Shown one piece after another: positions 14,385 to 48,131 of a stretch of 64,000 nt of DNA (positions within the stretch are counted from its first letter, which is position 1; each line of letters starts with the position of its first letter). The stretch is from assembly GCF_949628265.1 (NCBI RefSeq), contig NC_088789.1, forward strand, positions 30,683,883 to 30,747,882, given 5' to 3'. The translations under genes were made by a program, and so were the position numbers. The DNA comes from Cloeon dipterum. Its lineage: Eukaryota; Arthropoda; Insecta; Ephemeroptera; Baetidae. Under the pieces are notes generated by a model. That model searched no databases. It had not been told where the DNA came from and was given only the letters and a program-made list of their open reading frames with translations.

Positions 14385-14390
14385 AATAAA
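14385..14390 (+). terminator. polyadenylation signal, ANK gene 3A
   Basis: AATAAA 27 bp after the stop. The following 14400-14880 is AT-rich with no gene seen. Confidence 0.65.
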
Positions 14391-16594: not shown

Positions 16595-16599
16595 GGAAA

Positions 16600-17515: not shown

Positions 17516-18007
17516 AATTAATATTGATAAAATCAAATCCGTTAAGCCTCAGTGATTGCTAAAAACGTGAAGCCGGGTTCCTGCGGCGTCAAATATTGGC
17601 CAAGTGGATCAAAATCGTCTCGACTTTACGCACCATTATGTGCGTGATGTCGGACGGCAGAAAGCCGAAATTTCTGAAATTTCTAGTAATTCGAGGCTTT
17701 TACTGCAGTTTTTCTCCGTAGATATTATGTTTAGTGAAGGAATTACATCAGCGAAAGGATAAAAGTCAGGGAAATCATTGGATTCAAGGGGATATTCGGG
17801 ATAACGTTTTTAAATACGGATTTGTTATTTGCACGTAAGTTGGTGTGCATAAGAGGAGAAAACCTGCAGCCCGTCTTCCCATCACGTGATGTCGCCACTC
17901 TTTTTTTTCTATCTCAGTGCCCTGCTGTTGGTTCTATTGACTATTTTAATTTAGTTTGTGGCGTGCTGTGCGATTAAATTTGTATTTTTGCTTCTCGCCT
18001 CTGATTC

Positions 18008-18306
18008 CTACTATATGCACGTCAGCTTTATTTGCACGGTGTTAGTGTGTTGCTGAGCAATGCGACTGATTGTAAGTAAACAATCCCTGAAACCTCGCGT
18101 TTAAGACGGTGACAGACCTTCGGACAGTCGGATGGAACTCCCCAATAACAGCTTTAGTGTCCAGGTTATTGACGAGTTCCATCCGACTGTCCGAAGGTCT
18201 ATCACCGTCCCGAATGTGAGATTTCAGGGATTGTTTACTTACAATCAGTCGCATTGCTTAGCAACACACTAACACTGTGCAAATAAAGCTGACGTGCATA
18301 TAGTAG
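18008..18306. mobile_element. 299-bp foldback MITE in the UTR intron (copy A)
   Basis: An almost complete palindrome: CTACTATATGCACGTCAGC at the left and its reverse complement at the right, with the fold near 18156. The equivalent in copy B is 30471-30769, also 299 bp. It was therefore present before the duplication. Confidence 0.85.
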
Positions 18307-18412
18307 GGCATCAGCTCTGTTACCAAATTTAATACTCTCCTTAACCTGGACTCTTTTATACTAAATTTCATAGCGTCCTTTCTGTTATCCTGTTTCAGTT
18401 GCCGCCATCAAT

Positions 18413-20448
18413 ATGAGCGATACGGTCAATTCCGGAGCAACTGCGGACTCGCAAAATTCCCAAGATGTCTCGGTTAGTATGCTCGACGATAGCTTCAAAC
18501 CGAAAATAGTGTGTTGCCAGGCTTATTTAGTTTTATTTTGCCTCCTGGAATGTTAACAATATGGCAGGATTTCTATTATTACGCAATTATTAAATTCTTG
18601 TGGTGGTTCAGTGCACCGTGCGACGCAGATGACGTCACACAGTGCATTGCCCGCTCGCTCTAGCCTTCCCTTCCCACCCCGCTTCCCCTTTCACCTTGCA
18701 ATCTCAACGCTAGGCGTCGCAACGGCCTGGGGCCGCCCGGCACTCTTCCCTTCAATCTTGGTTTTTGGATATAAAGGCCGCCATGGACCATGCGTGGTAG
18801 TGGCACGCTGGGTTACAAGGACCACACATGTACGTTAAAGATTCTCTTCTAAATCGCCAAATGTAATCTGATTCCAGAATGCACCCCAACCGCTGATAGA
18901 ATGTTGCTTAAAACAGATAAGAGATGCTCCCACCATGGATGCGAGGGTTCATCAACCGTATTGTGAGTGATTACCTTAACATTTGAACAACTGAAACCCT
19001 TAAACATGAGAATTATTGGCCGCCTTTGTCAAAGGACTGACCACCAGATTAAAATGAACTAATTTAATCACTATCAATATCATCCCAACTCCTGTCCACA
19101 GAAGAAACCTTTTGGAACTACAAGAAGTGCGATAGATTAATACTTAAATGGATAAACAAAAGTCTGCAATTCTGCATGCCTTAAACAATTCATTGCTTTT
19201 TAATTTCTAAAGAACGGCCGTTTCCTTCTAAGTTTTTTTTTATAAAGCTAATCTACGCAGTCAACAAAAAAATAGCAACGTGTGTTTGTTGATGGTTAAA
19301 ATAAATTCCCAATTTAAATCAAATTCGGCACATTCGCTAGTTTTACGTCTCATGAAGTATATTTCATTTACAGACTCAGCACCTCCCACACTGTTTGGCT
19401 ACAGTGTTCCCCCGAGGCTAAGTCGCACGCTCCAGCCCCGTGTGATCCAAATCATCGATCCCTTAACTCTCAAACCTGTTTCAATTTTCATTCCGGGTGA
19501 AACGGACAGAGACGAACCTACAGACTTATCACCTCCCACACCGCCTGGCTACAGTGTTCCCCCGAGTCGAAGTCGCAGTGGTAGGAACCTGCCCATTAAA
19601 CCACGGCGCCGTCCGATGGAAATCGTCTTTCCCTTAACTCTCGAACCTGTTTCACTTGATACTGAGAGTGAAACGGACACAGACGAATCTACGCCGCCCA
19701 GCTCTGCAGACTCCAGCGCCAGGCAGACTCCTGAGCCGGTCAGTTTCAAATTTGAATGTAAAATTGTAAGCCCATAATAAACTTAAATTTTGAAACTAAA
19801 ATTAGGCTGTAGTTGAATTCCTCGATTGGGAAATTCTTTGCTCTGACACTTAAGGACCCTGTCTTTGACGAAGTTTCTGGACATACCAATCGATTCTGGA
19901 GGGTCGAATTAGGTAAAGTGGATGTTTTTCCAATCAAAGAGTGACTTTTTTCCCGCCAAATCGATATGAACGCACTTGCGAGAAGTGCGCATGCGTGAGA
20001 GCTGGTTGCAGAGAGACCGCTTGTACGAATAGCTACTTTGTTAGATTCAGCCAGCTCTCACGCATGCGCAGTTCTCACATTCATATTGTTTTGGCGGGGA
20101 AAAATCCACTTTATCAAATTCGACCATCAAGAATCGATTGAAGTGCTCAGATACTTCGTCGAAGACATTCTTTAAGAGGCTCATGGCAAACATGAGGGAG
20201 GTTTGAAGTTTTTTATCTAAAAATAAATCATCAACCTCATCCATTGTCTTTGATTCCCATCATTCTTGCCATGGCATCTTCTCTACTCGTATTTATTTTA
20301 ATTCAAGTCGCTATAGAGTCCCTAATCCTATAAATATTTTGACCTGACTTTCTTTTTTTTTGTAACGCAGGGTCAGGTGGATGACGACTTGTCTGCCGAT
20401 TTTACCGCCAAGGTGGAAATCGCTGCTAAGGACGTCTCAAAACCCTAA
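18413..20448 (+). CDS. proline-rich tandem-repeat protein, copy A
   Basis: Model join(18413..18472,18917..18962,19374..19765,20371..20448), 191 aa; all junctions are GT-AG with matching phase. The protein starts MSDTVNSGATADS, then has two diverged repeats of about 50 residues. Each has a GYSVPP segment, an SR-rich stretch, PLT-L-(K/E)PVS, and a Glu/Asp/Thr segment (ETDRDEP, ETDTDES). It ends with an acidic-basic tail stopping at DVSKP. Past this stop, a different frame reads an acidic run (EEPKPTKEALETVASEASKE), so the C terminus may have been cut by a frameshift. If the donor at 19766 is not used, the stop is at 19775. I recognise no family; it looks intrinsically disordered. Confidence 0.55.
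18630..18775 (+). promoter_or_regulatory. internal promoter candidate: CRE plus TATA box
   Basis: Inside the first coding intron of the repeat gene: a perfect CRE palindrome TGACGTCA (18630-18637), a pyrimidine-rich and GC-rich stretch, then TATAAA (18770-18775). The same pair is kept in copy B (31093-31100 and 31233-31238). It could start a transcript that enters at the exon at 18917, which contains an in-frame ATG. Confidence 0.4.
19867..20160. mobile_element. foldback MITE with CGCATGCGTGAGAGCTGG arms (copy A)
   Basis: Inverted arms: GACGAAGTTTCTGG..TCGATTCTGGAGGGTCGAATTAGG and ..CGCATGCGTGAGAGC on the left, with complements on the right ending CTTCGTC. Related copies are at 32320-32628 (copy B) and 38591-39068. 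It would lie in the last intron of the repeat gene. Confidence 0.75.
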
Positions 20449-21250
20449 GAGCCAGCCTTGGCGCCTGTGATCGTAGATATTCGGACGGACCGGTTGAAGA
20501 GCCCAAACCTACAAAAGAGGCGCTGGAGACTGTCGCGTCGGAAGCATCCAAGGAAGAGGAAAAACCACCAACACTCGGCACTGCCACCCTCCACGAAGAG
20601 CAGCACTGTCCTGAATGAGCATGCAGACGGCCAGTTTTTTTTACTCAATATGGATGAACAGCTTTCGATAATTTACTATTCCGCGATGAAACTTTAATAA
20701 TAATCCTGTCTAACTACTACGATACAACCTGAATATAATTTAGATCAATTAATCAGCATTTGAATCGTTGCGATTTTTTTAATATAATTATCCTGCAAGA
20801 CGTGATGCTTATTTTTTAAATAATGCAAAAGCACAGAAAGTTAGCTTTTAACTGATCACTGCGCGGAGGAGTTAAACTCTTATTTCAAACCTGAACTTTA
20901 AATTCCGTCGATTTCAATTCCAAAACACGTAAACTTTCCTAATTGGAAATTTTTGACAACTGAAACCAAGAAACCAACACCAATCTGAAATATTGAGAAA
21001 ATGTCAGCCTGCAGGCGTGCAGGGCATAATTTTAATTCAATTCAATCCTAATTCAATCAACGAGTGTGGATCATTTGGCTAACCGCGTTTTTGTGTGCAG
21101 CGCTGCGCCTTGCCTGGGCAAAAAGATCTTTTTATTTATGAGGAAATGCAAGTCACTCTCTGCACCGCCTAAAGGAAACAGCAGCTTAAAATTCAGCAGG
21201 ATTTTACACTCAATACAGAATTTTCCGAGCGCACTCGCTCGCTGATGGGA
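20449..21250. other. 3' region of repeat gene A and promoter-side region of the orphan exon
   Basis: Contains the out-of-frame acidic continuation described for the repeat gene (to about 20618), then AT-rich sequence, then a TATTTATGAGGAAATGCAAGTC core at about 21130 that is kept in copy B at about 34920. No further gene. Confidence 0.4.
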
Positions 21251-21354
21251 GAGTGAGGGAGCCGCAGCGTCCTCTTTCCTCTTGGGATCTCTGTGCTCCG
21301 GCAGTGTCTCGAGCGGTGGCGAGCCAGCATCACCAGGGATTATACGCGTCCACC

Positions 21355-21377
21355 ATGGACCTTCACCGGCATCTCAG
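21355..21377 (+). pseudogene. orphan copy of ADAMTS-like coding exon 1
   Basis: Identical in sense to 35160..35182: CACC-ATG-G start, the eight-codon beginning MDLHRHL, and a GTAAGC donor. The upstream leader is also duplicated. The matching second exon is not in copy A; the nearest one is at 36464, 15 kb downstream past the whole of copy B. It keeps an intact start and donor, so it may be a dead fragment or a usable distal first exon. Confidence 0.85.
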
Positions 21378-22178
21378 GTAAGCCCCCTTTTTCTTCTCTC
21401 GCCATTCTCAATGGAGATTTTTCGCGCCAATTTTTCCTGAGGAGATTATATGGGAAGTTGCAACTTTTACTGCTTCATCTAAGGGAATGAGATTCGATTT
21501 CAATGGGGTTGTTTATCATCCTTGGAAATTTTAACTGCAATAAAGTGTTGTTCACTTTATTTTCAAATCGCATTATAAATTAACGTTTAAAATTAAAATA
21601 TAAATTTATTGCTCAGCTTAGCGGTTGGAGTGAGTTAATTTTTTCCACCCAATTTAAATAGAAAAATCAATTATGCAAGGTGATGTTCCACCTTCTGGAT
21701 GCTGCGAATGAATCAATTATTAGTAAATAATTCCATCTGAAACCCGACGGCGTTAATTTCCGGCACATCCTAATTAAATTGACACATCAGTCATTCTCGA
21801 CGACGCATGAATACGCGAGGCGGGTTTCATTGCAAGCAAATTTTCCACGACCCTCCAAGAAGAAGAAATATGAATTTCAGTCAGCAGCTCATGGGGGAAA
21901 AAGCGGCCGAGAGGCTCTCTCTAGTCCCTTTCAGAGATTCGAGTTTATTCCAGACGGAAAAATGTGCCCTAATTATCGCGGCATAATAGTTCATGAGGAA
22001 GTGATTCGTCGTGTGATATCTCAGCGCCAGCTGAGAATTGAGAATTGACGGCAATGTTATCGACGGAAATCGTGACACCTACTAATACTGGAGGTTGTGT
22101 AATATTCGCTATTATATTTTCAAGGCGAGTAAACAAAATTGACTTGGTGTATAATTTAAGAATTAAATTATTCTTGCC
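21378..22178. other. truncated copy of ADAMTS-like intron 1
   Basis: Matches the first part of intron 1 downstream of 35182 and stops at 22178, where copy B begins. No gene. Confidence 0.7.
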
Positions 22179-23509
22179 CCAATGAAGGCAATATCGATAT
22201 TTTTTCAGACGATAAATATCGATTTATATCGATAGTCAGAAACATTTTGGTGATGAGTGATGACTAATCGTGTTATTTTTATGGCCAATTTTTTAATATC
22301 AATATTATCGTCTTCAAAATATCGATGTCCATGTGGCGGATCACGGAAATAACGCAACCTGTCAAAAAAAATGAATAAAAGATGCAGTCACTGCGCCATC
22401 GTTTAACAACGCCAGTCCGGCTCTGCTGTTGCTAACTCCTTAACAGCATCCGGCAGAGGTAAGGCCGTGTGGCCGCTGGCTGGCCGGCAAAAAGTTAGGA
22501 GAAAAACCTCCAGATGCGCTCAAGTCGCTGCAGCCGTGGCGAAAGTCGGCTGCTTGAGCAACGCAGAACGCAGGTAGAAGAAGGCTCGTGAAAAAAAATT
22601 CGTTTGCCTCAAGGTTGGCCATTTATCTTGGAAGTCATTTACGGCAGCGAGACGTGCCGTGCCGTGCCGATGCGCTTTCTTGGGCTGAAAATGCTGACTG
22701 GAACAAAAGCGACTGGACAATAGATCTTCTTACACTCAGGTAAAGGAACCCTCACGGAGAATGATAAAAGAGGAAAAAAGAATAAAAGGCCGTGTGACCG
22801 TGGGAAGAAGGAATTCAAGGAATAGAAACATAAAAGATCATTTTTTCCCTTCGCGTGCTGCACTTATTTATGTACAGCAACACATGAAAATAGGGAAAAT
22901 AGTTTGTTTTTTAATATTCCTGATTAAAGTTTGGTATTTTTAATTGACCTACTATAACTGCACAAAAAATGTAAATTTATCTCGATACACATCTGGGACC
23001 AGTTTTTTTATTTATTTTTATAGAAAAGCTAGTAATAAAATGTAATTTTTTTATCCATTTTAGTTTCAAAGTAATATTAAAAATTGAAACAAAATCTAAT
23101 AATTACATCTCCGGACAAATATATCTTGAGCGAATTAATAATCCTTCTCCCTGATCAAATATTTGCCTTTCACGAGCACGATTTTTATTGTTTTCGTTCT
23201 TTTACCCGGAGTTTCACTCAGAGTTTGATCAACGCCTAAGATGCCTCAAGGTTTTCCTCTTCAAGGGCGTGGTGTGGTTTGTTGGATTAAGAAAACTGAT
23301 TCCTTTCAGGTAGGAATGAAGGCGGAAGAGCCCAAAGAGATGATCTCTGCTCAGCTCAGTGCTTCCTCTAGAGTCCTCATTTTGAAACTGGGCCAAAAAC
23401 GAAAAGTCTTTTAACATGGGAAAAGATTGATTTTGTGGATCTGCACAGGACGAATGCGCGTGACTCTGAATCGACTCTATTGGCTTTGTAGCATAATAGC
23501 CTGATCGTG

Positions 23510-23699
23510 AGAAGCCAGCGGAGCGCTGGCTTTTCTCCTCAACCCTCATTCATCGCTCTCGCCACCGCTGCCGTCGGCTCAGGAGAATTCTCTCCTCTCT
23601 CCTCACACTTTAGAGTCAGCAGTCAACCTGTGTGCCTCGAGCAGCTATCGCCTCTTCCCTGTTTACATCTATTCGCCAGTCGCGGCCTCAATTATACTC
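23510..23699 (+). other. putative 5' UTR exon of ANK gene 3B
   Basis: Counterpart of the exon ending at 11421, with donor GTAAGT at 23700. The intron runs to CCCAG at 24715. Confidence 0.45.
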
Positions 23700-23802
23700 G
23701 TAAGTCAATTTTTCTTTACAGTTTTTAATTTAATTCATCTGCTTCTCTCTAACTATTATTGTTTCTTTTTAATATATAATTTCCGTCTCAATAATTAAAA
23801 AA

Positions 23803-24430
23803 ACAAGCTCTTCGCGCTTGTTCGTGGGGGTAGGTGTGTTGTTTTTTAACGAAAAACTGTTGGCGATTATATAGGAGGGTGGCTGCGTCGGAAAAATCGC
23901 GAAAAATGGCCCCGGGATTGATCTCAGGGTGGGTTACCCTGAAAATAGTCGTCAGGGTAAGTCGGGTGGTAAGGGTTTGCGAGACCTTTCGTTTGAGACT
24001 TCGTGACTTGAAATCCATCAATCTGACGAATTTTTATAAAAGGTAAACCATTTTCGCCTGGGCGGCCATCAACGCCTTTTGGTAAACAATGAAAGTAAAT
24101 GGAGAAAAAAAATCACCCTCTAGCTCGACCTTGAAGGTCACGCTAGAAAACGTTGCCGTGATCTGCCGCAATGTCTATTTTTATTATTATAATTCGTACG
24201 CATTCGCATCATTGACCATGACCTCTCATCGGACAGGTCTTTTTTCCTAAATTTATTTGATCCACCCTGATGATCTTATTCAGGGTACCCCACCCTGAGG
24301 TCTGTTCAGGGGCCACTTTTCGCGGTTTTTCCGATACCACCACCATGCACTTTTGCAACTCCGCTAACTTTTATCGTTAAAAACCAAACGACAAACTACC
24401 CACCCCCATGCGCAAGCGCATAAAGCTTGT
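23803..24430. mobile_element. foldback element in the UTR intron of ANK gene 3B
   Basis: Copy B counterpart of 11525-12148, same arms and orientation, with a few base changes. Confidence 0.65.
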
Positions 24431-24731
24431 AATTTGTTCATAATGGAGCAGCTAGGGTATGTTTCACTCAAATTAACATTTATATTCTGTTTTACTAGTA
24501 TAATATATGTGCCTGTTTTTAAGTTACTGGTACGTTGAAAATCCCAATTTATAGTGGGTTGTTTTGAAAATAAATCGTAGGAGGGAAATCTCCCCAACAG
24601 TGCAATTTTTTGACATTGATTTTGGAACTTAAATAATTTAGACATGATAAATATTCAGTTTAAAACGTGTAATAATTGATAATTAAGTTAATAATTTAAT
24701 TCCATTTGTTCCCAGTTGACAAAACTACAAA

Positions 24732-26645
24732 ATGAACAACATAAAAGTGGAAGTAGAAAGTCCAGAAAATGCCAGCACAAGCAGTGAGTATCGATTTTTA
24801 TAGCCATTATACTACAAAGGTTTATTTTTGGTCAACATGGTCAGCCATAAACCATGGTTTGATAAGCGGGTTTAAAATTTGATACCGCGGAAAAATGACC
24901 CAGGAGCCAGGAATACATTTATTTCCGGCCCTCTGTGACGTTATATTGGCAGTAGCATAAAACGTAAAATAAAAAATTATAAATTTGATTTTGATATCAC
25001 ATCCGGGATGAATTTGGCTTAAGCTTATCTCAGTGCATCCAAAACTTCGCGGCTTTATCAAAGATTCATATATAGTTTAAATTAGTTAATTATTTCAGGA
25101 AAACGACAACATGAGACAGAGCCACAAACTCCGCGAGAGGAGAAGAAAATGACGTTAGATGAGCAGTACGAAAAGCTGATCAAGATCAAGCTGAAATTTG
25201 TCGAAAAGAACAAAGGTGAGATACCCGCTCTCCATTTCGCGGCAAGGGTGTCCGATGTTGACGTTTGTCGGCGCCTCGTGGAGCAGGGCGCCGACGTCAA
25301 CGAAAAATACGGCGTTCGAGGCGCCACTCCCCTGCACTACGCCGCTATGAACGCATCCCACGGAGAAGGTCTGATCGATTATTTCCTTGAAAAAGGGTGC
25401 GACATTGATGTAGAAGATGCTCATTATGATAAAGCTATCAAGTATGCCCTCCGAGTTGAAAATTTCAAGCTTGCAATGCGAATGCATATGCTCTCTCAGA
25501 AACGCAATTCAGGAAAAGCAAGTATTCGTAGTGTTCTACGTTTTTGCTTGATGCAAAATAGCTTGAACTTCGCGAAGTTCTTGTACAATAATAAGAGATG
25601 TGAGATATTGAGCAAACGCCCAAGTCATTTTTCCATGCTTGATACGGCTTGCAAGTTTGGAGATCTGGAGATGTGCAAGTGGTTGCTAGAAGAAGTCAAA
25701 ATCGACGTCAACAAGTTTAATGAGGTTAATTGGAAAGACCAAGTTCTTGACCAAGTTGCCCATAATCTAAAAAACGAAGCAAGTAAGATCCTTCGATACT
25801 TTTTCTCAAAGTTTGAATTCACCGGTGATCAACAAAGGAATGCCTATAAGTCAGCTTTTTTATATAAATTAGGTGAATATCCCTTCTGTGCAGAAGAGGC
25901 AGAAGAGTTGTTCAAGAGAGTTGCTGACACAAAGATCAAAATAGAGGGCAACAGTTTGTTGCACCATTGTTTTTCAAAGACTGTGCTTACTTTAGACGCT
26001 GCAAAATTCGTGCACGAAAAGGACGGAGACCTCATCAATGAGATCAATGAAGACGGAGCGACAATTCTCCACCTCGCAGCACGATTTGCAGGCGTCGATG
26101 TGTGCCAGTGGCTGGTGGATCAGGGCCAAGACATCAACGCCGTGAACAAACAATCCTTTGCCAACTTTCTCCACTACGCTGCTCAAAACAGATTTTTTGG
26201 AGATTCGATCATTCAAGAATTTGGACATAACTTGCGCGGAATCGTGAACCAAATCGACGAAAACGTCTACACTCCACTCCATTACGCCATACTCAACGAA
26301 AGACACGTTGAGGTTGCAGAGGTATTGCTTGAACTCGGTGCTGATTTGAGCGTGAAAAGGAAAGGAAACAACTTTCTTCACTTCTGCATCGTTTTGGGCA
26401 AGTTGGAATGTGCAAAATTCGTGCATGCCAAGGATAAAAATCAGATCAAGGAAAAGGGAGAAGGAGGCAAAACCACACTGCACCTTGCTGCTGACAACTT
26501 TAATGAAGAAATATGCGCATGGCTGGTGAGGGACGAGGGAGCTGATCCCCAAGAAATTACCGTCGGAGGAAAATCGGTGCTTGAATCTACTTCCAGCGAG
26601 GAGGCCAAGAAGGGCCTTGAATCGTTGATCACAACCAAGAAGTAG
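24732..26645 (+). CDS. ankyrin-repeat protein 3B (two coding exons)
   Basis: CDS join(24732..24783,25099..26645), 532 aa, exactly the length of 3A with the same phase-1 intron, so it is intact. By eye the second exon differs from 3A at 21 bases: 14 change amino acids and 7 are silent. The replacements are concentrated in the diverged middle (residues about 155-260), including a two-codon change (RQ to LK) and LCHFSMLDM to PSHFSMLDT. The consensus ANK units at both ends are almost unchanged. AATAAA at 26672. Likely the same class of scaffold as 3A, perhaps with a shifted binding surface (inference). Confidence 0.88.
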
Positions 26646-26671
26646 AAATTATTTCAAGAATCAATTCAACT

Positions 26672-26677
26672 AATAAA
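26672..26677 (+). terminator. polyadenylation signal, ANK gene 3B
   Basis: AATAAA 27 bp after the stop, as in 3A. The stretch 26700-27166 is AT-rich with nothing recognised. Confidence 0.6.
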
Positions 26678-27530
26678 ATCGCACTGTTCTGATTCAAAAT
26701 AATGATGTTCTCTGATTAACTGTACTGGAATAAAAGATAAAAAATATTTTAAACTATTATTTTTAAATCAACACCAGTAAAATTGTAAAGTTTAACTTTT
26801 CTACTGAGCGCAGAATCGTATAGATTGGATGAATGCGTGGCCCGAACGGAGGATATTTCAGAAATTTGAAAAATATTTACTTCCTGCTGTGTACCTTTCT
26901 ATAAATATCTTTGATTTTTTTAGAATCAACCTTTGATAAGAAATGGGTATTTTGCATAAATTTAAAAAAAACGAGTATTTTCTGAGCAGAGATGAGACCA
27001 AAATTCCAATTTGTTTTATAAAAATTAAATATATTTATATTTCAACTAATTTATCGGGAAGATTATTATAAATTTGACGTTTAAGAACCTTTTATTTGAA
27101 AATAGACTTTCTCCTTCAACATGATCATAGAGCTGCTGGACTGGATCAAAGCGAGGTAAGGACGTGGGCAGACCGCCCCTAATGATTAATACCCCTCGTA
27201 AAATGTTGTTGTTTATAGTTGACCATCAGCTGACGCTGCCGCGCTGCCGGCTTGGCCTGGGCTTGGCTCACTTCTCACTTGCACTCTTGTCTGGCCACGT
27301 AGGCGTGGTGCGTGCCATGCGTGGTGGCATAATAATTATGCGTTTATGCGCCCTGTTAGTTGTGACGCAGAGGTTTTGGCGCCGCGAGCATTTTCCTGCA
27401 ATTATTTCCCTGAAGCCAGCCAATGAGAACGTCAGAACGTGACGCTAAGGCCACGCCCATTGGCTGAACCTGCTGTCAGCTGATGAAAACCAAAACACAG
27501 GGACACGGACACAGTGCCGGTATTCACGGT

Positions 27531-27694
27531 TAAGGAGAGTAAAGGTAGGAGATGCGAATAAACAGCCAGAGTCACCAAAAGAGGGGAAGGGGTGGGGGTG
27601 AACGTCGCTTGTTCGCTGGTTGTTCGCCCCCACCCCTTCCCCACTTTTGGTGACTCTGTCTGTTTATTCGCATCTCCTACCTTTACTCTCCTTA
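27531..27694. mobile_element. 164-bp MITE with 8-bp target duplication (copy B only)
   Basis: Arms of about 70 bp, nearly perfect inverted repeats, opening TAAGGAGAGTAAAGGTAGGAG and closing with the reverse complement. It is flanked on both sides by TTCACGGT (27523-27530 and 27695-27702). The sites in copy A (about 15185) and in the partial copy (about 9545) lack it. An 8-bp duplication suits a hAT-type non-autonomous element. Confidence 0.88.
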
Positions 27695-28030
27695 TTCACG
27701 GTAAAGCGCGGCCTGAGCCCTGATTATGAGTGCGGCCGCGGAAGAAAATAATGGATTTAAGAGGCGATTAATGATACTTCGGAAACACCCAAAGAGATAA
27801 AACGTAAATTAATATAAATTGAACCTGCAGTATTCTCAATTTACATCGCAGCAAAATTCCTTCCTGGCGCCGTCATCCTCATGAAATCGACTCGACTTTC
27901 GTCCATCTTTGATTTTTCATGTCGTGATTTATTTTTGTGCACTTCTATGCATGTATTTGCAGCCTACGAATTTTCAGTAAAATATTCATTTACATAGTGC
28001 AATTTCGTGTGCTCACCCCTTTTTTTTCAG

Positions 28031-29060
28031 GTCGTCTCGAGCAGGATAAAATTGACTCGTCGGATGAAGAGGGCCAGGTCGCAAAATCTGAAGCCGCGGC
28101 GAGATGATGCTCAGGAAAAACACCTGATTCGATTTTGTTCGGAGACGGAGCACCACCTTCACCTTCACACTACACGTTGGACCATTCCCACAATGGAGGC
28201 GGAGACGAGCAAATCAAGCACTCATCTGAAGGCATCTGTTTATTTCACCCTTTTATATTAATTTCTAATTAATAAACCATTTATTTTCAGATCATCTGCG
28301 CCAGGTTTGAAAAGTACCGGCCCGAGTCTGTGTTGCAGCTGACCAAAATCTGGGTCCTGGCGCTGAAAATTGTCTGTGGACCAGTACGTCATGGACCATG
28401 GACCGCTTCCTGGCCACCTTTGGTCCGAATCTGCACACGCTACGTGTCAATTACCTGCCGCTGGCGTCCGAAACTGGTGACTGGCTACAATAGTGTGTTG
28501 TCTCATGAAGCTCTGTCCTCGACCGGAAAAGTTATAACTTTGGAAGGCGTCTTGCTCATAGAGGAAACTGACGTGGACAACTTTCCTGAGCTTGGAGAGT
28601 TCGCGTGAAGAGTGTCCTCGTTGGTTTAATTTAGTTAATAAGGTTTTGAAATTGAAATAATTAAATTACGCAGTAGTGAGGCCTGCGAGGTGGTGGCCAG
28701 TATCCTGACTTCGCCCTGATTGCAGAAGGTTTGCCTGGAGGTGGTATTCAACCTGGACGCCCTGGAGAAGGTCACTGCTCAGATCAGGGAGAGAAAGATC
28801 CTGAGGCAGCACATTCTCCAGAGAGAATTCCGCCATTATAACTTGCAAACCATATCTGATCAATTCGGCGCCTTCTGTTTCTCTGGCAAAGGTTGCTTCG
28901 GCCTTTATGCCCAACCTGATTGACGTCCAGTTCTCTGTGATGAAGTGCCTGCTTTCCTCTTACCCTTTCAGTCCTTTATTCGGTGGACTCAGGAAAGACG
29001 AGAGCCTCCACAAATATTCTCGACGAGTTCAAGAAGTTCAACAGAAACAAATTAAATAAA
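28031..29060 (+). pseudogene. leucine-rich-repeat-like pseudogene B
   Basis: Copy B partner of 15556-16594, same exon traces and final AATAAA. The first exon has lost its ATG (ATAAAATTGAC in place of AGAATGGAC) and has other indels. The LRR-like end TLEGVLLIEETDVDNFPEL is open in one frame, and in the third exon the TAG seen in copy A is CAG (ILRQHILQREF). Still broken by several shifts. Confidence 0.65.
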
Positions 29061-29069
29061 GGAAAAAAT

Positions 29070-29945
29070 GTTTGCTTGCTACCTGAATAAGATAAATACA
29101 TAAATATATTTATTTACAAAAAAGATATAAGGATAAACTAATAATTAATGTTGTTCAGGCATAATGAATTTTTACTTGAATTATAATTTTGCTAACCGAC
29201 CTGCGCCCTATATGCCGCACCATATGGCATTTTTAGCTTGACAATACATGTTGCAGTGAAAACATCTTAATATTTGGTTAGGTGTTTTTATTTAAAATAA
29301 TATTTTGCTCATTTAATAAAAAAAAATATATTTTTTTGTAAATATATGTTGCCAATGAAGGCAAAAGATGCACTCAGAGTCGTCGTAATACGTTCATTTA
29401 AAATTAGAAGCAGCTTCCTCGGTGTTTATTTTTATTCATTATATTTTTACAGAAAATTCCTACTTAACCAGAAGCAAAAACACAGTGTGAGCATGAAATT
29501 TCTGCAGGAATAATGAAAAATATCAATAATATAGAGGCTTCCAGGTGTTGCGATGGTAAAATGCGGCTTATATTTTCCCGCCCATCAAGCTCAGGCAAAC
29601 AACTGGCGTGACAATCCTAGGGATGCCACATGTATAAATCAGCATGAAGTGTTCTCAAAATCGTTAAAGGTTGAAGCAAAAGCCCGAAAATCTGCTCGAT
29701 GTAATTATATTTTCCAGTTTTGACAGTAAAATGCCCGGTTTCAGGATTTAATCACTTGGCAAATTCAGATTTTAAAGGCAACCCTAGATCCCTTGCTCTC
29801 ACCATGCAGCGCCACCAAGTTGTAAAGTCGTAACTATACCGTTTGTGTTTTGTTTTTGTTTACATCATCTCCTGACGCTATCCGAGAGTCGCGTGCTTGT
29901 TCGCTGGTCTGGCTTCGAATTTCTTTGATTTCAACAGAATATAAG
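29070..29945. other. intergenic and putative UTR exon, copy B
   Basis: Counterpart of 16600-17515; the UTR exon of repeat gene B would end ATATAAG then GTAAGT at 29946. No other gene. Confidence 0.4.
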
Positions 29946-30470
29946 GTAAGTTCTCAATTAATATTGATAAAATCAACTCCGTTAAGCCTCAGTGATTGCT
30001 AAAAACGTGAAGCCGGGTTCCTGCGGCGTCAAATATTGGCCTAGTGGATCAAAATCGTCTCGACTTTACGCACCATTATGTGCGTGATGTCGGACGGCAG
30101 AAAGCCGAAATTTCTAGTAATTCGAGGCTTTTACTGCAGTTTTTCTCCGTAGATATTATGTTTAGTGAAGGAATTACATCAGCGAAAGGATAAAAGTCAG
30201 GGAAATCATTGGATTCAAGGGGATATTCGGGATAACGTTTTTAAATACGGATTTGTTATTTGCACGTAAGTTGGTGTGCATAAGAGGAGAAAACCTGCAG
30301 CCCGTCTTCCCATCACGTGATATAATTTTAGGATGTCGCCACTCTTTTTTTCTATCTCAGTGCCCTGCTGTTGGTTCTATTGACTATTTTAATTTAGTTT
30401 GTGGCGTGCTGTGCGATTAAATTTATATTTTCGCTTCTCGCCTCTGATAAGGCGACATTTTTTGGTATTC

Positions 30471-30769
30471 CTACTATATGCACGTAAGCTTTATTTGCAC
30501 GGTGTTAGTGTGTTGCTAAGCAATGCGACTGATTGCAAGTAAACAATCCCTGAAACCTCGCGTGCGGGACGGTGACACACCTTCGGACAGTCGGATGGAA
30601 CTCCCCAATAACAGCTTTAGTGTCCAGGTTATTGACGAGTTCCATCCGACTGTCCGAAGGTCTATCACCGTCCCGAATGTGAGATTTCAGGGATTGTTTA
30701 CTTACAATCAGTCGCATTGCTTAGCAACACACTAACACTGTGCAAATAAAGCTGACGTGCATATAGTAG
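30471..30769. mobile_element. 299-bp foldback MITE in the UTR intron (copy B)
   Basis: Counterpart of 18008-18306. Immediately left, copy B has about 20 extra bases (AAGGCGACATTTTTTGGTAT) absent from copy A. Confidence 0.85.
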
Positions 30770-30875
30770 GGCATCAGCTCTGTTACCAAATTTAATACTC
30801 TCCTTAACCTGGACTCTTTTATACTAAATTTCATAGCGTCCTCTCTGTTATCCTGTTTCAGTTGCCGCCATCAAT

Positions 30876-32264
30876 ATGAGCGATACGGTCAATTCCGGAG
30901 CAACTGCGGACTCGCAAAATTCCCAAGATGTCTCGGTTAGTATGCTCGACGATAGCTTCAAACCGAAAATAGTGTGTTACCAGGCTTATTTAGTTTTATT
31001 TTGCCTCCTGGAATGTTAACAATATGGCAGGATTTCTATTATTACGCAATTATTAAATTCTTGTGGTGGTTCAGTGCACCGTGCGACGAACCTGACGTCA
31101 CACAGTGCATTGCCCGCTCGCTCTAGCCCTCCCTTCCCACCCCGCTTCCCCTTTCACCTCGCAATCTCAACGCTAGGCGTCGCAACGGCCTGAGGCCGCC
31201 CGGCACTCTTCCCTTAAATCTTGGTTTTTGGATATAAAGGCCGCGCCATGGACCATGCGTGGTAGTGGCACGCTGGGTTACAAGGACCACACATGTACGT
31301 TGAAGAATCTCTTCTAAATCGCCAAATGTAATCTGATTCCAGAATGCACCCCAACCGCTGATAGAATGTTGCTTAAAACAGATAAGAGATGGTCCCACCA
31401 TGGATGCGAGGGTTCATCAACCGTATTGTGAGTGATTACCTTAACATTTGAACAACTGAAACCCTTAAACATGAGAATTATTGGCCGCCTTTGTCAAAGG
31501 ACTGACCACCAGATTAATATGAACAAATTTAATCACTATCACTATCATCACAACTCCTGTCCACAGAAGAAACCTTTTGGAGCTACAAGAAGTGCGATAG
31601 ATTAATACTTAAATGGAAAAACAAAAGTCTGCAATTCTGCATGCCTTAAACAATTCATTGCTTTTTAATTTCTAAAGAACGGCCGTTTCCTTCCAAGTTT
31701 TTTTAGAAAGCTATTCTACGCAGTCAACAAAAAAATAGCAACGTGTGTTTGTTGATGGTTAAAATGAATTCCCAATTTGAATCAAATTCGGCACATTCGC
31801 TAGCTTCACGTCTCATGAAGTATATTTCATTTACAGACTCAGCACTTCCCCTACCGTCTGGCTACAGTGTTCCGAGGCTAAGTGGTTGGATCCAGCCCGT
31901 TGTACCACTGCGCCGTGCGATCGATATCATCGATCCCTTAACTCTCGAACCTGTTTCACTTGATACTCAGGGTGAAACGGACAGAGACGAACCTACAGAC
32001 TTATCACCTCCCACACCGCCTGGCTACAGTGTTCCCCCGAGTCTAAGTCGCAGTGGTAGGAACCTGCCCATTACACCACGGCGCCGTCCGATGGAAATCA
32101 TCTTTCCGTTAACTCTCGAACCTGTTTCACTAGATACTGAGAGTGAAACGGACACAGACGAATCTACGCCGCCCAGCTCTGCAGACTCCAGCTCTGCAGA
32201 CTCCAGCGACAGGCAGACTCCTGAGCCGGTCAGTTTCAAATTTGAATGTAAAATTAGGCTGTAG
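30876..32264 (+). CDS. proline-rich tandem-repeat protein, copy B
   Basis: Model join(30876..30935,31382..31427,31837..32264), 177 aa. The first two exons are as in copy A. In the third exon both repeats read PLTLEPVSLDT, whereas repeat 1 of copy A reads PLTLKPVSIFI, so B repeats 1 and 2 are more alike. A duplicated SSAD stretch lies before the tail. The donor that ends this exon in A (ATT then GTAAGC) is missing, and the frame runs to a TAG two codons later, so the exon matching 20371 (32858..32935 here, still with its acceptor) appears cut off. No known family; probably disordered. Confidence 0.5.
31093..31238 (+). promoter_or_regulatory. internal CRE plus TATA promoter candidate, copy B
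   Basis: TGACGTCA at 31093-31100 and TATAAA at 31233-31238, same arrangement as in copy A although the surrounding bases have changed. Confidence 0.4.
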
Positions 32265-32319
32265 TTGAATTCCTCGATTGGGAAATTCTTTGCTCTATCA
32301 ACTTGAGGACCCTGTCTTT

Positions 32320-32628
32320 GACGAAGTTTCTGGGCACACCAATCGATTCTGGAGGGTCGAATTAGGTAAAGTGGATGTTTTTCCGATCAAAAAATGCTTT
32401 TTTTTCCCGCCAAATCGATATGAACGCACTTGCGAGAAGTGCGCATGCGTGAGAGCGGGTTTGAGCACTTGCAGAGAGACCGCCTGTACGAATGGCTACT
32501 TTTTCAGATTCAACCAGCTCTCACGCATGCGCAGTTCTCTCATTCATATTGTTTTGGCGGGAAAAACATCCACTTAACCCAATTCAGCCCTCGAGAATCG
32601 ATTGAAGTGCTCAGATACATACTTCGTC
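32320..32628. mobile_element. foldback MITE, copy B counterpart
   Basis: Matches 19867-20160 with small indels; same inverted arms ending CTTCGTC. Confidence 0.75.
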
Positions 32629-33637
32629 GAAAACATTCTTTAAGAGGCTCATGGCAAACATGAGGGAGGTTTGAAGTATTTTATCCTGAAATAAATCATC
32701 CCCCTCATCCATTGTCTTTGATTCCCATCATTCTAAGGTTTATTCCCTTAAAACAAATAATCCCTTTAGAATGAGCAGATTTTTCTCTACTGATCGTATT
32801 TATTTTAATTGAATTCCTATAAATATTTTGACCTGACTCTCTTTGTTTGCAACGCAGGATCAGGTGGATGACGACTTGTCAGCCGATTTTGCCGCCAAGG
32901 TGGAAATCGCTGCTAAAGACGTCTCAAAACCCTAAGAGCCGGCCTTGGCGCCTGTGATCGTAGATAGACGGACGGACCGGTTGATGAGCCCAAACCTACG
33001 AAAGAGGCGCTGGAGACTGTCGCGGCGGAAGCATCCAAGGAAGAGTTTCTGCCGCTCTCAAAACCACCAACACACAGCACTGCCACCCTCAGCAGCTTTA
33101 TCCTAAGTGAGCATGCAGACGGCCAGTTTTTTACTCTCAATATGGATGAACAGCTTTCGATAATTTTCTATTCCGCGATGAAATTTTAAAAATAATCCTT
33201 AATCCTGTCAAACTACTACGATGAAACCTGAATATAATTTTAGATCAATTAATCAGCCTTTGAATCGTTGCAATTTTTTTAATATATTAATCCTGAAAGA
33301 CGTGATGCTTATTTTTGTAATAATGCAAAATTATTTAAAGCACAGAAAGTTAGCTTTTAACTGATCACTGCGCGGAGGGGTAAAATTCATAAAAATCTAA
33401 AGAAAAATCGAAACCTGAACTTAATGGTTCATATTTAAAACCTGAACTTTAAATTCCGTCGATTTCAACGATTCCAAATTACGGATATTTTCCTGAGTGG
33501 AGAAATTTTTGACAACCGAAACCAACACCATTCTGAAATATTAAGAAATTTTCAGCCTGCAGGCGTGCAGGTCATAATTATTTTAAATTTAATACAATCC
33601 TAATTCAATCAACGAGTGCAGATCATTTGGCTAACCG
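32629..33637. other. 3' region of repeat gene B, no further gene seen
   Basis: Contains the stranded last exon (32858-32935) and the out-of-frame acidic tail to about 33110, then AT-rich sequence up to the transposon. Confidence 0.4.
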
Positions 33638-33645
33638 CGCTCGTG

Positions 33646-34872
33646 TAAAGTGTATAAATAAGTGAAGCGGAGTAAAAAGTGGGCTGGGCTGTAGCACTAC
33701 TCGGCTTTTTCTCCCTATGCTGGCCATGCAAAATGCCCTCGCGCAATCGCCTCTCAAAGCACTCTCGATTCGCGAAAAAAATTTTCGTTGGTACCAATGG
33801 ATAGCTGAAGATTTGCACTTCAACATGTGTCAAAACCAAAATCGAAAAAATGAACAGGTTTTGAGAAATCGGCGATTACATTTCATGCTCTTTCGCGCGA
33901 GAAGGCTCGGTCACGTGACTCGGGCGAGCGCGCTGATTGGTTGCTGGTCGCGCCTACATTTTCAGTCACAACACAGTCTCGGCAGTGTTTACATATTATT
34001 CAGTCAGATTTTCGGCTCTAATTTTGTACACGGCACGACCGTGCCCTGTATTTTTGTACCCTGCCCAAGGCAAACTTATAAACTGATTATGTATGTGCGT
34101 CATGTTTACACTGAAAAATACAAAAATATCGAAATAGTAATTATGTTACTGCAAGACTTTTTCGCTTAAATCGGTACGTCTGTTTGTATGCATCTCCGGT
34201 GTATCTCTAATATTTTTAAGACTCCAGCAAAAAGTTCTGCTCATGAGGCAAGGAAAAATATTTTAATGGCAATATTCTGAACAAAAATCAAGCAATAAAA
34301 TTTAATTTGCAACACAGAGAGTCACGGGCTCATGAAAAAATAACGGGAGAGAAAGTTATTACAGTACAAATTTTAATAGGCAAACAATCTACATGAAATA
34401 AATGTCCTCGAACCTGGTTACTTCCTTTTATCAATCTATCTTTTCTTACTCCGGGGTTCTGATGGCTTTGATTCATCATTCCTTTTTCTTTTTCCACTCT
34501 GCGCATTTTCTACGTATGCTTTTCCTCCAGCTGTTGAGCTTCCAGTCGCAGCAGGACAGATGTGCTGCGACCAGCAACCAATCAGCGCGCTCGCCCGAGT
34601 CACGTGACCGAGCCTTCTCGCGCGAAAGAGCATGAAAAGTAATCGCCGATTTCTCAAAACCTGTTCATTTTTTCGATTTTGGTTTTGACACATGTTGAAG
34701 TGCAAATCTTCAGCTATCCATTGGTACCAACGAAAATTTTTTTCGCGAATCGAGAGTGCTTTGGGAGGCGATTGCGCGAGGGCATTTTGCATGGCCAGCA
34801 TAGGGAGAAAAAGCCGAGTAGTGCTACAGCCCAGCCCACTTTTTACTCCGCTTCACTTATTTATACACTTTA
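33646..34872. mobile_element. 1227-bp hAT-like non-autonomous element with 306-bp TIRs
   Basis: Inverted repeats 33646-33951 and 34567-34872 differ by only about two bases by eye and open TAAAGTGTATAAATAAGTG. The 8-bp target duplication CGCTCGTG is at 33638-33645 and 34873-34880. Copy A has an uninterrupted site near 21100. The 615-bp centre encodes no transposase I can recognise. Reading frames start identically in both TIRs and diverge in the centre; the one read on - (34801 to 34436) ends in a Lys/Arg-rich tail (GKRKRNDESK). The element is 250 bp upstream of the ADAMTS-like start codon, so its right TIR may be part of that promoter. Confidence 0.92.
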
Positions 34873-34880
34873 CGCTCGTG

Positions 34881-35159
34881 TATGCAGCGCCGCGCCGTGC
34901 CGGCTGAGCAAAAAGGTCTTATTTATAAGGAAATGCAAGTCACTCTCTGCAGCTTAAAATTCCGCCGAGTGCGGCGAATTTCACACTCAATACAGAATTT
35001 GCCGAGCGCTCTCGCTCGCTCATGGGGGAAAGAGGGGGCCGCAGCGTCTCGCGGAGGCGCGGCGTCCTCTCGGGATCTCTCTGCTCCGGCAGTGGCCGCA
35101 GTCGAAGTGTGTGTCTCGAGCGGTGGCGAGCCAGCATCACCAGGGATTACGCGTCCACC
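34881..35159 (+). promoter_or_regulatory. promoter and 5' leader of the ADAMTS-like gene
   Basis: A TTATTTATAAGG core at about 34919-34930 is followed 10-15 bp later by AAGTCACTCTCTGC. Then comes a GC-rich leader up to CCACCATGG at 35160. The counterpart in copy A (21110-21354) keeps a weaker core (TTATTTATGAGG) and lacks part of the GC-rich leader. Confidence 0.45.
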
Positions 35160-38100
35160 ATGGACCTTCACCGGCATCTCAGGTAAGCCCCTTTTCTTCT
35201 CTCACCATTCTCAATGGAGATTTTTTGCGCCAATTTTTCCTGAGGAGATTATATATAGGAAGTTGCAACTTTTACTGCTGAATGAGATTTGATTTTGATT
35301 TTTTTGATAATCATCCTTGGAAATTTTAACTGCATTAAAATGTTGTTCACTTTTTTTTAAATCGCATTAAAAGTAAACGTGTTTGAAATCAAAATATAAA
35401 TTTATTACTCAGCTTAGCGGTTTGAGTGATTCATTTTTTTCCACCAACTTTATAAAGAAAAATCAATTATGCAAGGTGATGTGTCCACCACACATCAGTC
35501 ATACTCGTCGACGCATGATTTCCCTGCAGCCGCACGGCCCTCCAAGAAGAAATAGTAATTTCAGTCAGCAGCTCTTGAGGGAAAAAAGCGGCCGAGAGGC
35601 TCTCTAGTCCCTTTCAGAGATTCGAGTTTATTCCAGGCGGAAAAATGTGCCCTAATTATCGCGGCAAACTTATGCACAATATTTTACAAGGAAGTGATTC
35701 GCCGTGTGATATTTCAGCGCCGGCTGAGATTTGAGAATTGACGGCGGTGTTATCGACGGAAGTCTGACACCCACTTATACTGGAGGTTGTGTAATATTCG
35801 CTATAATTTCTAGGCGAGTAAAAAAATTGACTCTTCGCGAATAATTTAAGAATTAATTAATGAAATATTAATTTTAAGATGTTACGAGGTGGCTAGCTCT
35901 TGGATTTATGCTTCAATTTGCGCGTCATTTGTATGGATAATTAAAGAGCAGTCGAGAGCCTCATTTTGGCTTGGTTTGAATGCGCCCTGAAATGTTGCTC
36001 TGCCAATTACCCTGGCTAGGGAGACGAGACGTGTGCCAGCTCGGGTACTTGCAATAATTGCGTTCATCCATTGGGAGACAAAACGCGATCGCAGTCCAAT
36101 TTTCGCACACACGCATTATTTATCAATGAAGCAGACGGCGACTTCCTGCGAGCCGAGAGGATAATAATAATAGGACTGTGAATTTTAGGAGGTTATATCC
36201 GGGAAAATTGTCGACTATTTTAAGACGAGTTTTTTGATAAATTTAGACAGATATTTACGATTTTCTATATTTTTATTTTCACTGACAAAAACTATATTAC
36301 CATATTAAAATTTCAATTTAAATGAACATTCGCCTTCTTCCACTGTGAGAAATGTAAGATGATAGGAATAGCATTCCCTAAATTTTACGAGCAGCAATCT
36401 CTGTTCATTTAGCAGTAAATTATTCATTAACGATTGAATTTTAATGCCTGTTTTGCTCCACAGGTCACCGGCGCTTTCGATCTTGGTGCTGGCCACATGT
36501 TTCAGTGCGTCGCAGGCTAGACACGTGAGTGCATATTATTCCATGGCCTGGTTTTTTCCCATTAGAAATTTTTTGAGAGGGTTGGGAGCCTCAAAGGCTA
36601 GATTATATCATGACGGCAAAATAAAATCGACGTCCACCCTCAGCGCGCGCGGTCCCCTTTTTATATTCTAGCTTTGTCAATTGTCAAGGCGAAAGCAGAA
36701 CAAAGTTTTTAAGTTCGAATGATCAAAAAAGACCAAAATAAAAAAAAATTTAATCTGTCTACTTAAGTTCTTTATCTTATGCAATTAAAGTTGAGAAGGT
36801 TAGTTCATGTATGGATTAAATTGCCTGTTATTTACTCTCTCGTTATGAAATCACTTTATAATAATAAACAAATTGAGCCTATGTCTGCTTGCAGCACAAG
36901 GAAATGGCCAACAACACCGAATTCGTTTCAGTAAATTATGTGGTGCTGGACGAGCAACCCGACTTGGGGCCGTGGAGCGATTGGTCATTACCCAGCTCGT
37001 GTTCTCGCTCGTGCGGAGGCGGAGTCGCCTTCCAGAGCAGAAATTGCAGGTAATTGCTTTTATTTCTTACCTCTGCTGCTCCTAATAACTCTCGAGAGAG
37101 AAAAAATGACCTGCTGGTTATTATCTGATCATATTTCTCTCTCTAAAATATTCACCATTTCCAGTTTGATTTATTTACAAGTGCATATTATTTTCTCAGG
37201 CACGGATCTGCGTGTCAAGGGCCGGCAAAACGATACTTCTCCTGCAACACGATGGTACCGTAAGAGTCGAGTATTTAAAATTAATGAGAGTCTTGTATGC
37301 TCGTCGGTGGTCCATATGGCGACCGTAAAAATAAAACAATACTTTAGCAGTGGCCGAACAGTTAAATTAATAACCCCGAGAATGAACACAACGAACTGGC
37401 CATGCACTGAACTGAATATGTAAAATATATTTTGTGTATTATCGCGTGCTTTCAGCACTGTCCGCCGGGCTCGAAGGACTTCAGGTCGGAGCAGTGCTCC
37501 AAGTTCGACACCCAGGACTTTGGAGGCAATTTATATGAGTATGCGAGCATTTTCTAATATTTAAATGATTCAAATGGGAGGTTGTCAAGACACAAATACT
37601 GAAAATTTTGCCAATAATATTTATAGTCAATTTTTAATTATTATTATTAAATTAGCATCCAATTGTATGTATGGTCCATGATAGAATTGGAATCTTGATA
37701 ACGTTACAAAACAACGAGACAGTAATTAAAGCAATTAATATGTTTCCCCTCGCTCCATTTACATGCAGAATGCAACCTACATTATTTTGTGATCGCATTT
37801 ATTAACTTTAATGTCAGCCAGATTTAGCATGTGCGTGCTTATTTAGGTGGATTCCATACACCAAAGGCGCTAATGATTGCGAGCTCAACTGCATGCCCAG
37901 GGGAAAGCGTTTTAACGGATTTACGACAAAAATGGTGGACGGCACGAGGTGCAATGATGAGACGTTCGACGTGTGTGTTGAAGGCAGATGCATGGTAAAT
38001 TTTGTAAACAACCGACAACCGACTCCCTCGCAAATAATAATTTCAGCCCGTCGGCTGCGACTTTTTTCTCGGATCTTCTCTGCGCGAGGACAAGTGCAGA

Positions 38101-41100
38101 GACTGTGGGGGCGACAACTCGGGCTGCATCACCGTCACCGAGATCATTTCGTTTGAAACCGACTTAAGTGACGCTGAACCTGGTGTGTGATATTCTTTCT
38201 TGCCTCGGATATATTTGAATTAACAGAATTTTTGTTACTATATATGGTATTTTGGTCGTACCACGAGTAAGATTTAATTAAGTTGATGGTAAAATGCATT
38301 TACTGTCTTAATAGCTCCTGAGTGGGCCCACGGCTCGCTAACCCAGCAAGAAAATGGATATCCGAAGGATATCCAAAAAGGTATCCGGGATATCCATGGA
38401 TATCCGGAGGATATACATCTGTAACGCCCGATGTCATAGGGTGGATATCCCGGATATCCAATTTCTGGCTGGGAAAGTTTCAATGCCATACTTTTAATCC
38501 TTTTAAACAAGCCATTGAATATAACATACAAAAAGATAATATCAACAAAACGTTTCATTTTTTCGATTTTTATTGAAAGTGAACATTAAATCTGAGCACA
38601 CCGATCGATTCTTGAGAGTCGAATTAGGTTAAGTGGATATTTTTACGACCAAAAAGTCCAGCGCGACGTGCGAACTTTTTTTCCCGCCAAAACAATGTGA
38701 ATGCCAGAACTGCGCATGCGTCAGAGCTGGTTTGAGCACTTGCAGAAAGTAGGGCTGCCACTCTCCGGGTTTCGACCGGAGATCTCCGGGTTTGGGACTG
38801 AAAACTTTAACACGGGAGCATAGGGATCTCCGGGTTTTTGAGTCCAAAATCTCCGGGTTTTAGCTTTGGAAGTCTGGCCCTCCTAGCAGAAAGACCGCCT
38901 CTACGAATGTCTTCTTTGTCAGATCCAGCCAGCACTGACGCATGCGCACTTCTTGCATTCATATTGTTTTGGCGGGAAAAAAGTTCGCACGTCGCGCTGG
39001 ACTCTTTGGTCGGAATAAACATCCATTTTGTCTAATTCGACCCTCAAGAATCGACTGGTGGGCTCAGAAACTTCCCCAAAGATGGTCTTTATAAGAAAAG
39101 CACGTAATTATTATAAGGGCAACTATAATTTAAGTTATTTTGTCCGATGTTTGCACTCCTATTGCGTTCAATTATAGCCAGAGGATTGATTTTTTTGTCC
39201 CAATAGGCTACAACGACCTTCTTCTAATACCCGCTGGAGCAACAAATATCTTTATTAGGGAACTAAAGGACGCCAACAATTATCTTGGTAAAGAGTAGCC
39301 GCAATTTTATTGTCTTTAATTTTTAATCATTGCGCTTAATTAATCTTAAATATGCAGCAATTAGAAATGGAAACAATAGTTTCTACCTGAATGGAAACTT
39401 TAATATCAACTATCCCGAGGATTTCCATTTTGCTGGAACTGTTTTCCATTATGAGCGCCAGCCTAACAGCTTTTTGCTTGGTTCTGCAGTTATTCGAGCA
39501 TTAGGACCAACGAATGAGTCACTTTATATCGCAGTAAGTAGAATATTCTTAGATTATGCAAAAACATATTTCTATTAATAAAAATTAAAAGCGCAGATAA
39601 TGATAATTAAATTATACTAATATTGGAATTTTAAATATCAATTATTCCTTTCTCTTAAAATTATAGTTACTGTACCACGAAGACAGGAAGGGAGAAGGCA
39701 TTGAGTACGAGTATAGTTTCTCCAAGGAAGAGCAGTCAGACGATTCAGACCACTACTTTTGGGTTACGCACAATTTCTCGGAGTGCAGCTCCCCGTGCGG
39801 AGGAGGTTTGCGCCTTTCTCATGATAGCTCAAGCACTAAAAGCCAAACGTTTTAATACTGCAGGTAGTCAAAACCGCACGCTGGGTTGCGCCAAGAAGAG
39901 CGACAACTCGGCCGTGAGCCTGCGACTGTGCAACCCGGTCAAACGACCCGCTACAACACAGAGGTGCAACGAGGAGACCTGCGATCCCGAGTGGTTCGTC
40001 AGTCTCTGGAGCCAATTCAGGCGGGTTTACTGCCTGCAGAAAATTAGCAACAGGATGACGGTGATTGAGGATGACGTGTGCGTCAAGAAGCATGGCGAGA
40101 AACCAATCGCTACTCATCAGCCGTGCAATGAAGAGGTAATTTTCATCCTTGATTATACTCCTATATATATACGGACGCCGGTAACAAATATTTATTTATC
40201 ACACTGATTGAGCCACAAAATGTATGCTTGTAATCTTGGTGTAGCGATAGGAGAGCTGAAATTCTAGAGACTTTTTAATTAAAATTGAGATATAGCTGCA
40301 AAAAAAGAAAATTCTTGTATTCTTGGAATTTGAAAAAGAACGTTGTATTCAGGTTCAAACTAACACTATAGGATTTGAAGGAAAATATTTATTTAGGTTT
40401 ATTTTTATTCTGATAATCGCACAGATGTTAATTTTTCTAATGATATTTCTTTTGGATTGCATTGAATTATATTTCAACTTTCAGTGCAACGAAGGCAAGC
40501 AGTACCAATCCTCCTCGGAAGACTATGACACCACCGCGAAGACGACCGAATCTACAACAATCAGCAGTAAAGCTACGACAGCAAAGAGTGAACCAGTAAC
40601 ATCTTCCCAAATGGTACACGCGCCCATAACAACCTCAGGTAAATGTTGAAATTATTGAAACTCTTTTCCAAATAATTTTGTACGGCGAATGGCTTAACTG
40701 ATTTTGAATTACAATAAATCAAAAGAAAATTCAAATTAAGTCTGAAATCATAGCAGAAATGACTTAAAAATTAATTTATCACGAAGGTATACCGCGGTGT
40801 GGGTTAGCCTCTGTAACTCGCTCTTTCGAAATTTAATTTTACATTGTTATTAAATGTAATGGAGAATTGAAACGCAAAGACCCCCTGAAGCAACAAAGAG
40901 TCATCTTAAATATTGCTCTTATACTTTTCCTCGTGTAAGATCTTATTCTTGTTTCTGATCCAGTTTTGTTCACGAAAAATTAAGTTCAACCTAGGGATTT
41001 TCGGATTACAGCTTTTCTAATCAATTAATGAAAATTTTAACCTTCGTATAATGTTTAGAACTGTGAAAAGGATAATTCATTCTAAAATTTGAGCTGAAGG

Positions 41101-48130: not shown

Positions 48131-48131
48131 G

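Follow-up and report, generated by a model that had tools for sequence, protein, structure and literature searches.

In the 64,000-nucleotide stretch of the Cloeon dipterum genome analysed here (the window), an ADAMTS-like gene (ADAMTSL) carries its promoter and first coding exon twice, ahead of a single second exon. The layout results from tandem duplication of a 12.3-kb unit whose right break, placed by self-alignment, lies inside intron 1 of the gene. Both promoters contain a module whose homologues lie between the genes of a zinc-finger cluster elsewhere on the contig, and the two have changed unequally. The distal copy, A, has departed from the module far more often than the proximal copy, B, which is split by a transposon. 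We lean, slightly beyond an even chance, towards B as the main promoter and A as a surplus promoter that has been wearing since the tandem duplication of a captured module.

Two first exons ahead of one second exon

Contig C4, on which the window is located, measures 36.4 Mb, and the genome searched comprises 190 Mb in 10 contigs. The features of the locus are as follows.

9900 to 22178, forward strand: duplication unit, copy 1, with ankyrin gene, other sequence, promoter, exon 1A and start of intron 1 (self-alignment and divergence profile)
21055 to 21216, forward strand: A promoter module, with homologues in the C4 zinc-finger cluster; no insert, many private changes
21294 to 21400, forward strand: tract free of substitutions between A and B, covering leader, exon 1A and donor; 103 columns
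21355 to 21377, forward strand: coding part of exon 1A, MDLHRHL plus 2 nt; donor GTAAGC at 21378
22179 to 35870, forward strand: duplication unit, copy 2, holding the transposon; right end approximate, last aligned base 35856 (self-alignment)
24732 to 26645, forward strand: second copy of the ankyrin-repeat gene, on the same strand as ADAMTSL, which any transcript from A must cross
33590 to 33645, forward strand: B module, distal half, cut off by the transposon; left limit approximate
33646 to 34872, no strand assigned: inverted-repeat transposon of 1,227 bp, ends TAAAGTG...CACTTTA, 8-bp target duplication CGCTCGTG
34873 to 35000, forward strand: B module, proximal half, opening with 8 bases that form the second copy of the target duplication
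35160 to 35182, forward strand: coding part of exon 1B; donor at 35183
36464 to 36524, forward strand: ADAMTSL exon 2, common to both possible first exons, starting after CTCCACAG
36464 to 41355, forward strand: ADAMTSL exons 2 to 13, hand-read, frame open as far as the stop; TSP1, cysteine-rich, spacer, TSP1 and PLAC domains

Because the unit breaks in intron 1, promoter and exon 1 are present twice ahead of the single exon 2, with exon 1A about 14 kb upstream of exon 1B. A duplicated promoter and signal-peptide exon had been proposed in a sequence-only reading of this DNA and is confirmed; the real unit is larger than that reading gave, at 9900-22178 versus 22179 to about 35870, and includes the ankyrin-repeat gene. 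Substitutions between the two copies are unevenly distributed. They amount to 0.2-3.5% in nine 500-bp bins over 10000-14499, to 0 to 14.5% in the bins over 14500-20599 and to 9-13% in four bins over the alignment of 20600-22166, and the ankyrin gene copies show a dS of 0.027. Promoter and exon 1 sit in the more diverged, older-looking part of the unit. The unevenness would fit patchy gene conversion.

Exons 1A and 1B read alike, ATGGACCTTCACCGGCATCTCAG followed by GTAAGC. Since both end in the same phase, a splice from A to exon 2 is predicted to give an identical protein start, which bears out the proposal that joining A to 36464 would yield the identical protein. Leader, start, MDLHRHL exon and donor have indeed been kept in A, free of substitutions against B across 103 columns. 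This is the longest clean run among 1,331 aligned columns with 139 substitutions, and a run of this length was reached in 17 of 20,000 shuffles; part of it may reflect constraint on B. The two leaders do differ by indels, such as a private 2-bp insertion in A inside the tract, and these would distinguish transcripts of A from those of B. On the A branch, 79 leader, exon and donor columns show 0 changes against an expectation of about 2.6 to 4 (P about 0.07 to 0.02; 20 A-derived intron changes were used where the count is 21, which hardly alters the range). The intact state of this part of A is a weak hint at continued use. Genome-wide, the exon 2 DNA has 4 matches, one per ADAMTSL gene of this type. 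None of them lies between A and B, so that A was correctly described as having no second exon of its own.

The gene has 13 hand-read exons, and the hand-spliced model comprises 554 amino acids. It carries the spacer (1.7e-21), TSP1_ADAMTS (1e-14), PLAC (1.5e-9) and CR_3 (1.9e-7) domains, together with a first TSP_1 that at 18 bits stays under its cutoff of 21.6. No metalloprotease domain is among the five families detected in the model. With TSP1, cysteine-rich, spacer and PLAC domains and no metalloprotease, the host gene is ADAMTS-like; among solved structures, the first part of the model matches ADAMTS13 (7.8e-22). Three close paralogs are located on C4 at 32.773 Mb (forward strand), on C4 at 32.714 Mb (reverse strand) and on contig C1 at 23.70 Mb. 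Over nine exons, dN/dS is 0.28 against the C1 paralog (302 codons) and 0.39 and 0.45 against the C4 paralogs (403 codons each), and these values indicate that the protein is under constraint.

Several further observations concern the paralogs and the surroundings. The 32.714-Mb and 32.773-Mb copies (L045-L048) are inverted relative to each other, with start codons about 53 kb apart. They are 92-97% identical in most aligned stretches and 83% in one 2.1-kb stretch, and self-complementary sequence lies upstream of their promoters. Within intron 1 of the window gene, a block at 35812-36115 is 85% identical to the intron of the C1 paralog, while the other aligned intron pieces reach 68-80%, save one 60-bp piece at 90%; the block is a possible regulatory element. 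Self-alignment also shows a self-complementary repeat, at most about 440 bp long, at no fewer than seven sites in the window:

1365-1800
43187-43625
44143-44576
45196-45631
51591-51968
57974-58407
61716-61946

Ankyrin-repeat genes or fragments are found on both strands, at 1938-7581, 12712-14358, 25086-26645 and 48059-48565 (five open reading frames called by Pfam, the 48-kb piece by DNA similarity only).

A zinc-finger module in the ADAMTSL promoter

About 160 bp before the ADAMTSL leader match the intergenic modules of a C2H2 zinc-finger cluster on contig C4. One module query gave at least 14 matches and a second at least 19, and all 14 and all 19 listed lie on C4. These matches correspond to eight zinc-finger module loci (29.59-32.31 Mb), to the ADAMTSL copies and to some fragments. 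Over the same columns, the 32.314-Mb module is matched at 135/152 (89%) by B, at 127/163 (78%) by A and at 52/129 (40%) by the C1 paralog, and the other two C4 ADAMTSL copies are 66-68% identical to it; in the alignment behind these figures and the module tree, the joined B flank is short. The module is absent from the C1 paralog, and inspection by eye reveals a sharp junction where C1 homology takes over from module homology. In the 32.773-Mb copy, also by eye, the zinc-finger match ends at about ...GCAGAATTTGCATTATTT and the C1 match starts directly after it, near GCCTAGCGCAC.

At 6 of 8 distinct loci the module is followed downstream by a zinc-finger coding block, oriented as ADAMTSL is; at L016 the block is deduced from the alignment at the edge of the fetched piece, and L050 does not fit. 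In four loci the first zinc-finger coding exon lies 1.2-2.3 kb from the module, which may thus be an upstream element or else a promoter followed by a long first intron. A reading of the modules as bidirectional promoters of divergent gene pairs was set aside, as gene directions do not support it in general. One query found no zinc-finger gene beside the ADAMTSL copies at E 1e-3, in the window and in 20-30 kb round the three paralogs. A search of 20000-37000 against Rfam returned nothing at gathering scores; the two module copies are thus not known RNA genes. Within the cluster (L049-L053, L011-L016), modules are 72-77% identical in nucleotide sequence to the 32.314-Mb one; despite this, the encoded zinc-finger proteins resemble those of L051 at a level of only about 40%.

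In an unrooted tree from a short alignment, the ADAMTSL copies adjoin the 32.314-Mb module with bootstrap values of 69-80. A C4 ADAMTSL copy has apparently taken over a zinc-finger promoter module; given the unrooted tree and these bootstrap values, we infer the direction of the transfer.

In B the module is interrupted. The arms of the transposon pair at 304 of 307 bases, and CGCTCGTG is found on both flanks. Its right end lies 287 bp before the start codon of B; a 1.2-kb transposon had been noticed here and stands, whereas the 250 bp given for its distance from the start codon needs correction. At the equivalent site A has no insert, so the insertion is most simply younger than the duplication. 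The 8-bp target duplication and the terminal inverted repeats of the window copy are hallmarks of hAT-type elements. Both ends were found at three of seven related loci examined (L055, L056, L057), all three with an 8-bp duplication; L055 and L056 share the same flank. The end sequences of the 1,227-bp element, together with the 8-bp duplications, suggest a non-autonomous element of hAT origin.

Unequal change of promoters A and B

With the majority base of the eight zinc-finger modules as reference, A has 17 derived changes and B has 2 (p = 0.0007, with the full join of the B flank). The majority base at the 17 places is held by 5 to 8 of the aligned modules, and without an ambiguously aligned stretch at 21113-21132 the count is 10 versus 1. 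Measured against each zinc-finger module singly, A has 14-18 changes and B 1-4 (p 0.0003 to 0.03). The proximal part at 21217-21303 adds 8 changes in A and 1 in B, which together with the module without the ambiguous stretch gives 18 versus 2 (p = 0.0004). Intron 1 has 21 changes in A and 14 in B, and its contrast with the promoter count of 18 versus 2 gives p = 0.03. With the paralogs as outgroups, the promoter has 15 changes in A and 3 in B, which does not differ significantly from intron 1 (p = 0.12).

Each copy has also suffered losses. A lost 9 bp including half of a short palindrome that B keeps, part of which is also missing in two of the eight zinc-finger modules, and a 19-bp stretch of the module retained in A has been lost from B. 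The CGCTCGTG motif, altered in A and duplicated as the transposon's target in B, was not observed in the other C4 copies, a pattern which suggests that the distal half of the module may be dispensable for ADAMTSL. The sequence-only reading had suggested that, with the transposon in B, the two promoters may now behave differently. The difference in sequence stands, and the damage to B is real in the form of the insert and the 19-bp loss. Its hint that B is the damaged copy is only half borne out, as the aligned promoter bases changed mostly in A, which also lost the 9 bp. Having lost conserved bases more often (18 versus 2), the A promoter looks relaxed. Even so, A at 64-78% identity stands closer to the zinc-finger modules than do the other two C4 ADAMTSL genes (58-68%), which have one first exon apiece; change of this kind therefore need not mean lost function, nor must A be dead.

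We propose the following course of events. A module of the zinc-finger cluster would have been joined to an ADAMTSL gene on the same chromosome as its promoter. The tandem duplication would then have copied the 5' end of the gene. B, which adjoins exon 2, would have retained the more conserved module, whose two halves a recent transposon insertion would have parted, and is most likely the main promoter. A would be left as a surplus first exon with leader, start codon and donor intact below a decaying module. As these elements are intact, any transcript starting at A could join exon 2 by a splice across 15 kb and encode the same protein. The output of A, if any, is probably weak or tissue-limited.

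Against this stands the possibility, which we hold only tentatively, that A is a maintained distal alternative promoter of ADAMTSL, perhaps with its own expression pattern. The 103-column clean run over leader, exon and donor, the same-phase route to exon 2 and the even greater distance of the other C4 ADAMTSL promoters from the module all speak for it, as does the PEP1 gene of Arabis alpina, where both copies are transcribed with differing expression (PMC3527215). A maintained promoter is harder to reconcile with 17 departures from the zinc-finger majority at places where B keeps the base, the reverse being found twice, and its transcript would have to cross the same-strand ankyrin gene and 16 AATAAA hexamers. 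In the most elaborate version of the case, C4 ADAMTSL duplicates took a zinc-finger promoter and one of them doubled it, leaving a transposon-split B and a fast-changing distal A with its own expression for the same secreted protein; taken whole, we regard this version as improbable.

The clean exon could also belong to a dead A, kept alike by a short gene-conversion tract from B. The contrast of 0.2-3.5% with 9-13% across the unit and the low dS of the ankyrin copies fit local conversion. We nevertheless consider it unlikely, for the clean tract coincides with the functional leader and exon, many of its bases are also conserved in the C4 and C1 paralogs so that constraint alone explains much, and A has its own 2-bp insertion within it. 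An assembly of two haplotypes, with the second copy as a false duplication, could account for the parts that differ as little as alleles could; the window contains no N, and the 9-13% difference over 20600-22166 makes such an origin very improbable. Equally little weight is given to a chimera in which A would drive the second ankyrin gene (24.7-26.6 kb). That gene does lie 3.4 kb downstream on the same strand, but a join from exon 1A to ankyrin exon 2 (at about 25099) goes out of frame, and by hand reading the copy appears to own a first exon. Surplus A with main B thus remains the reading that we prefer.

Relation to known systems

The locus is a compact natural case of promoter change following duplication, in which the relative wear of each copy can be read from sequence. 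Of the four genes of this ADAMTSL type, all but one carry a promoter that appears to be borrowed, and in one of these three it is doubled. If A is used, a single locus would combine promoter capture with subsequent promoter duplication. No report of this ADAMTSL locus was found in the literature searched, which leaves most subscription journals outside its coverage. Embryonic ATAC-seq data are available for Cloeon dipterum (PMC11491810). The Drosophila gene lonely heart is reportedly an ADAMTS-like gene, and the likeness to it is one of protein kind, both encoding insect ADAMTS-like matrix proteins.

What is less expected here is that the promoter itself has apparently been borrowed. A parallel is human HYDIN2, which was copied without its own promoter and supplied with one from its new surroundings, as a fusion with demonstrated expression (PMC5345166). 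Both are duplicate genes with a promoter from elsewhere, apparently so for ADAMTSL; the difference from HYDIN2 is that ADAMTSL retains its leader and coding exons.

For the doubled first exon, the closest match is PEP1. A partial duplication in tandem there took in exon 1 together with parts of the promoter and of intron 1; either copy of exon 1 is joined to a single exon 2, the proteins predicted in accession Paj are identical, and two start sites with differing expression are demonstrated (PMC3527215). The ADAMTSL locus likewise has exon 1, its promoter and the beginning of intron 1 in duplicate ahead of one exon 2. As this layout is known and active in PEP1, the kind is not new. The two loci differ in that an ankyrin gene lies between the copies at ADAMTSL, and in that both promoters are shown to be active in PEP1, those of ADAMTSL being candidate promoters.
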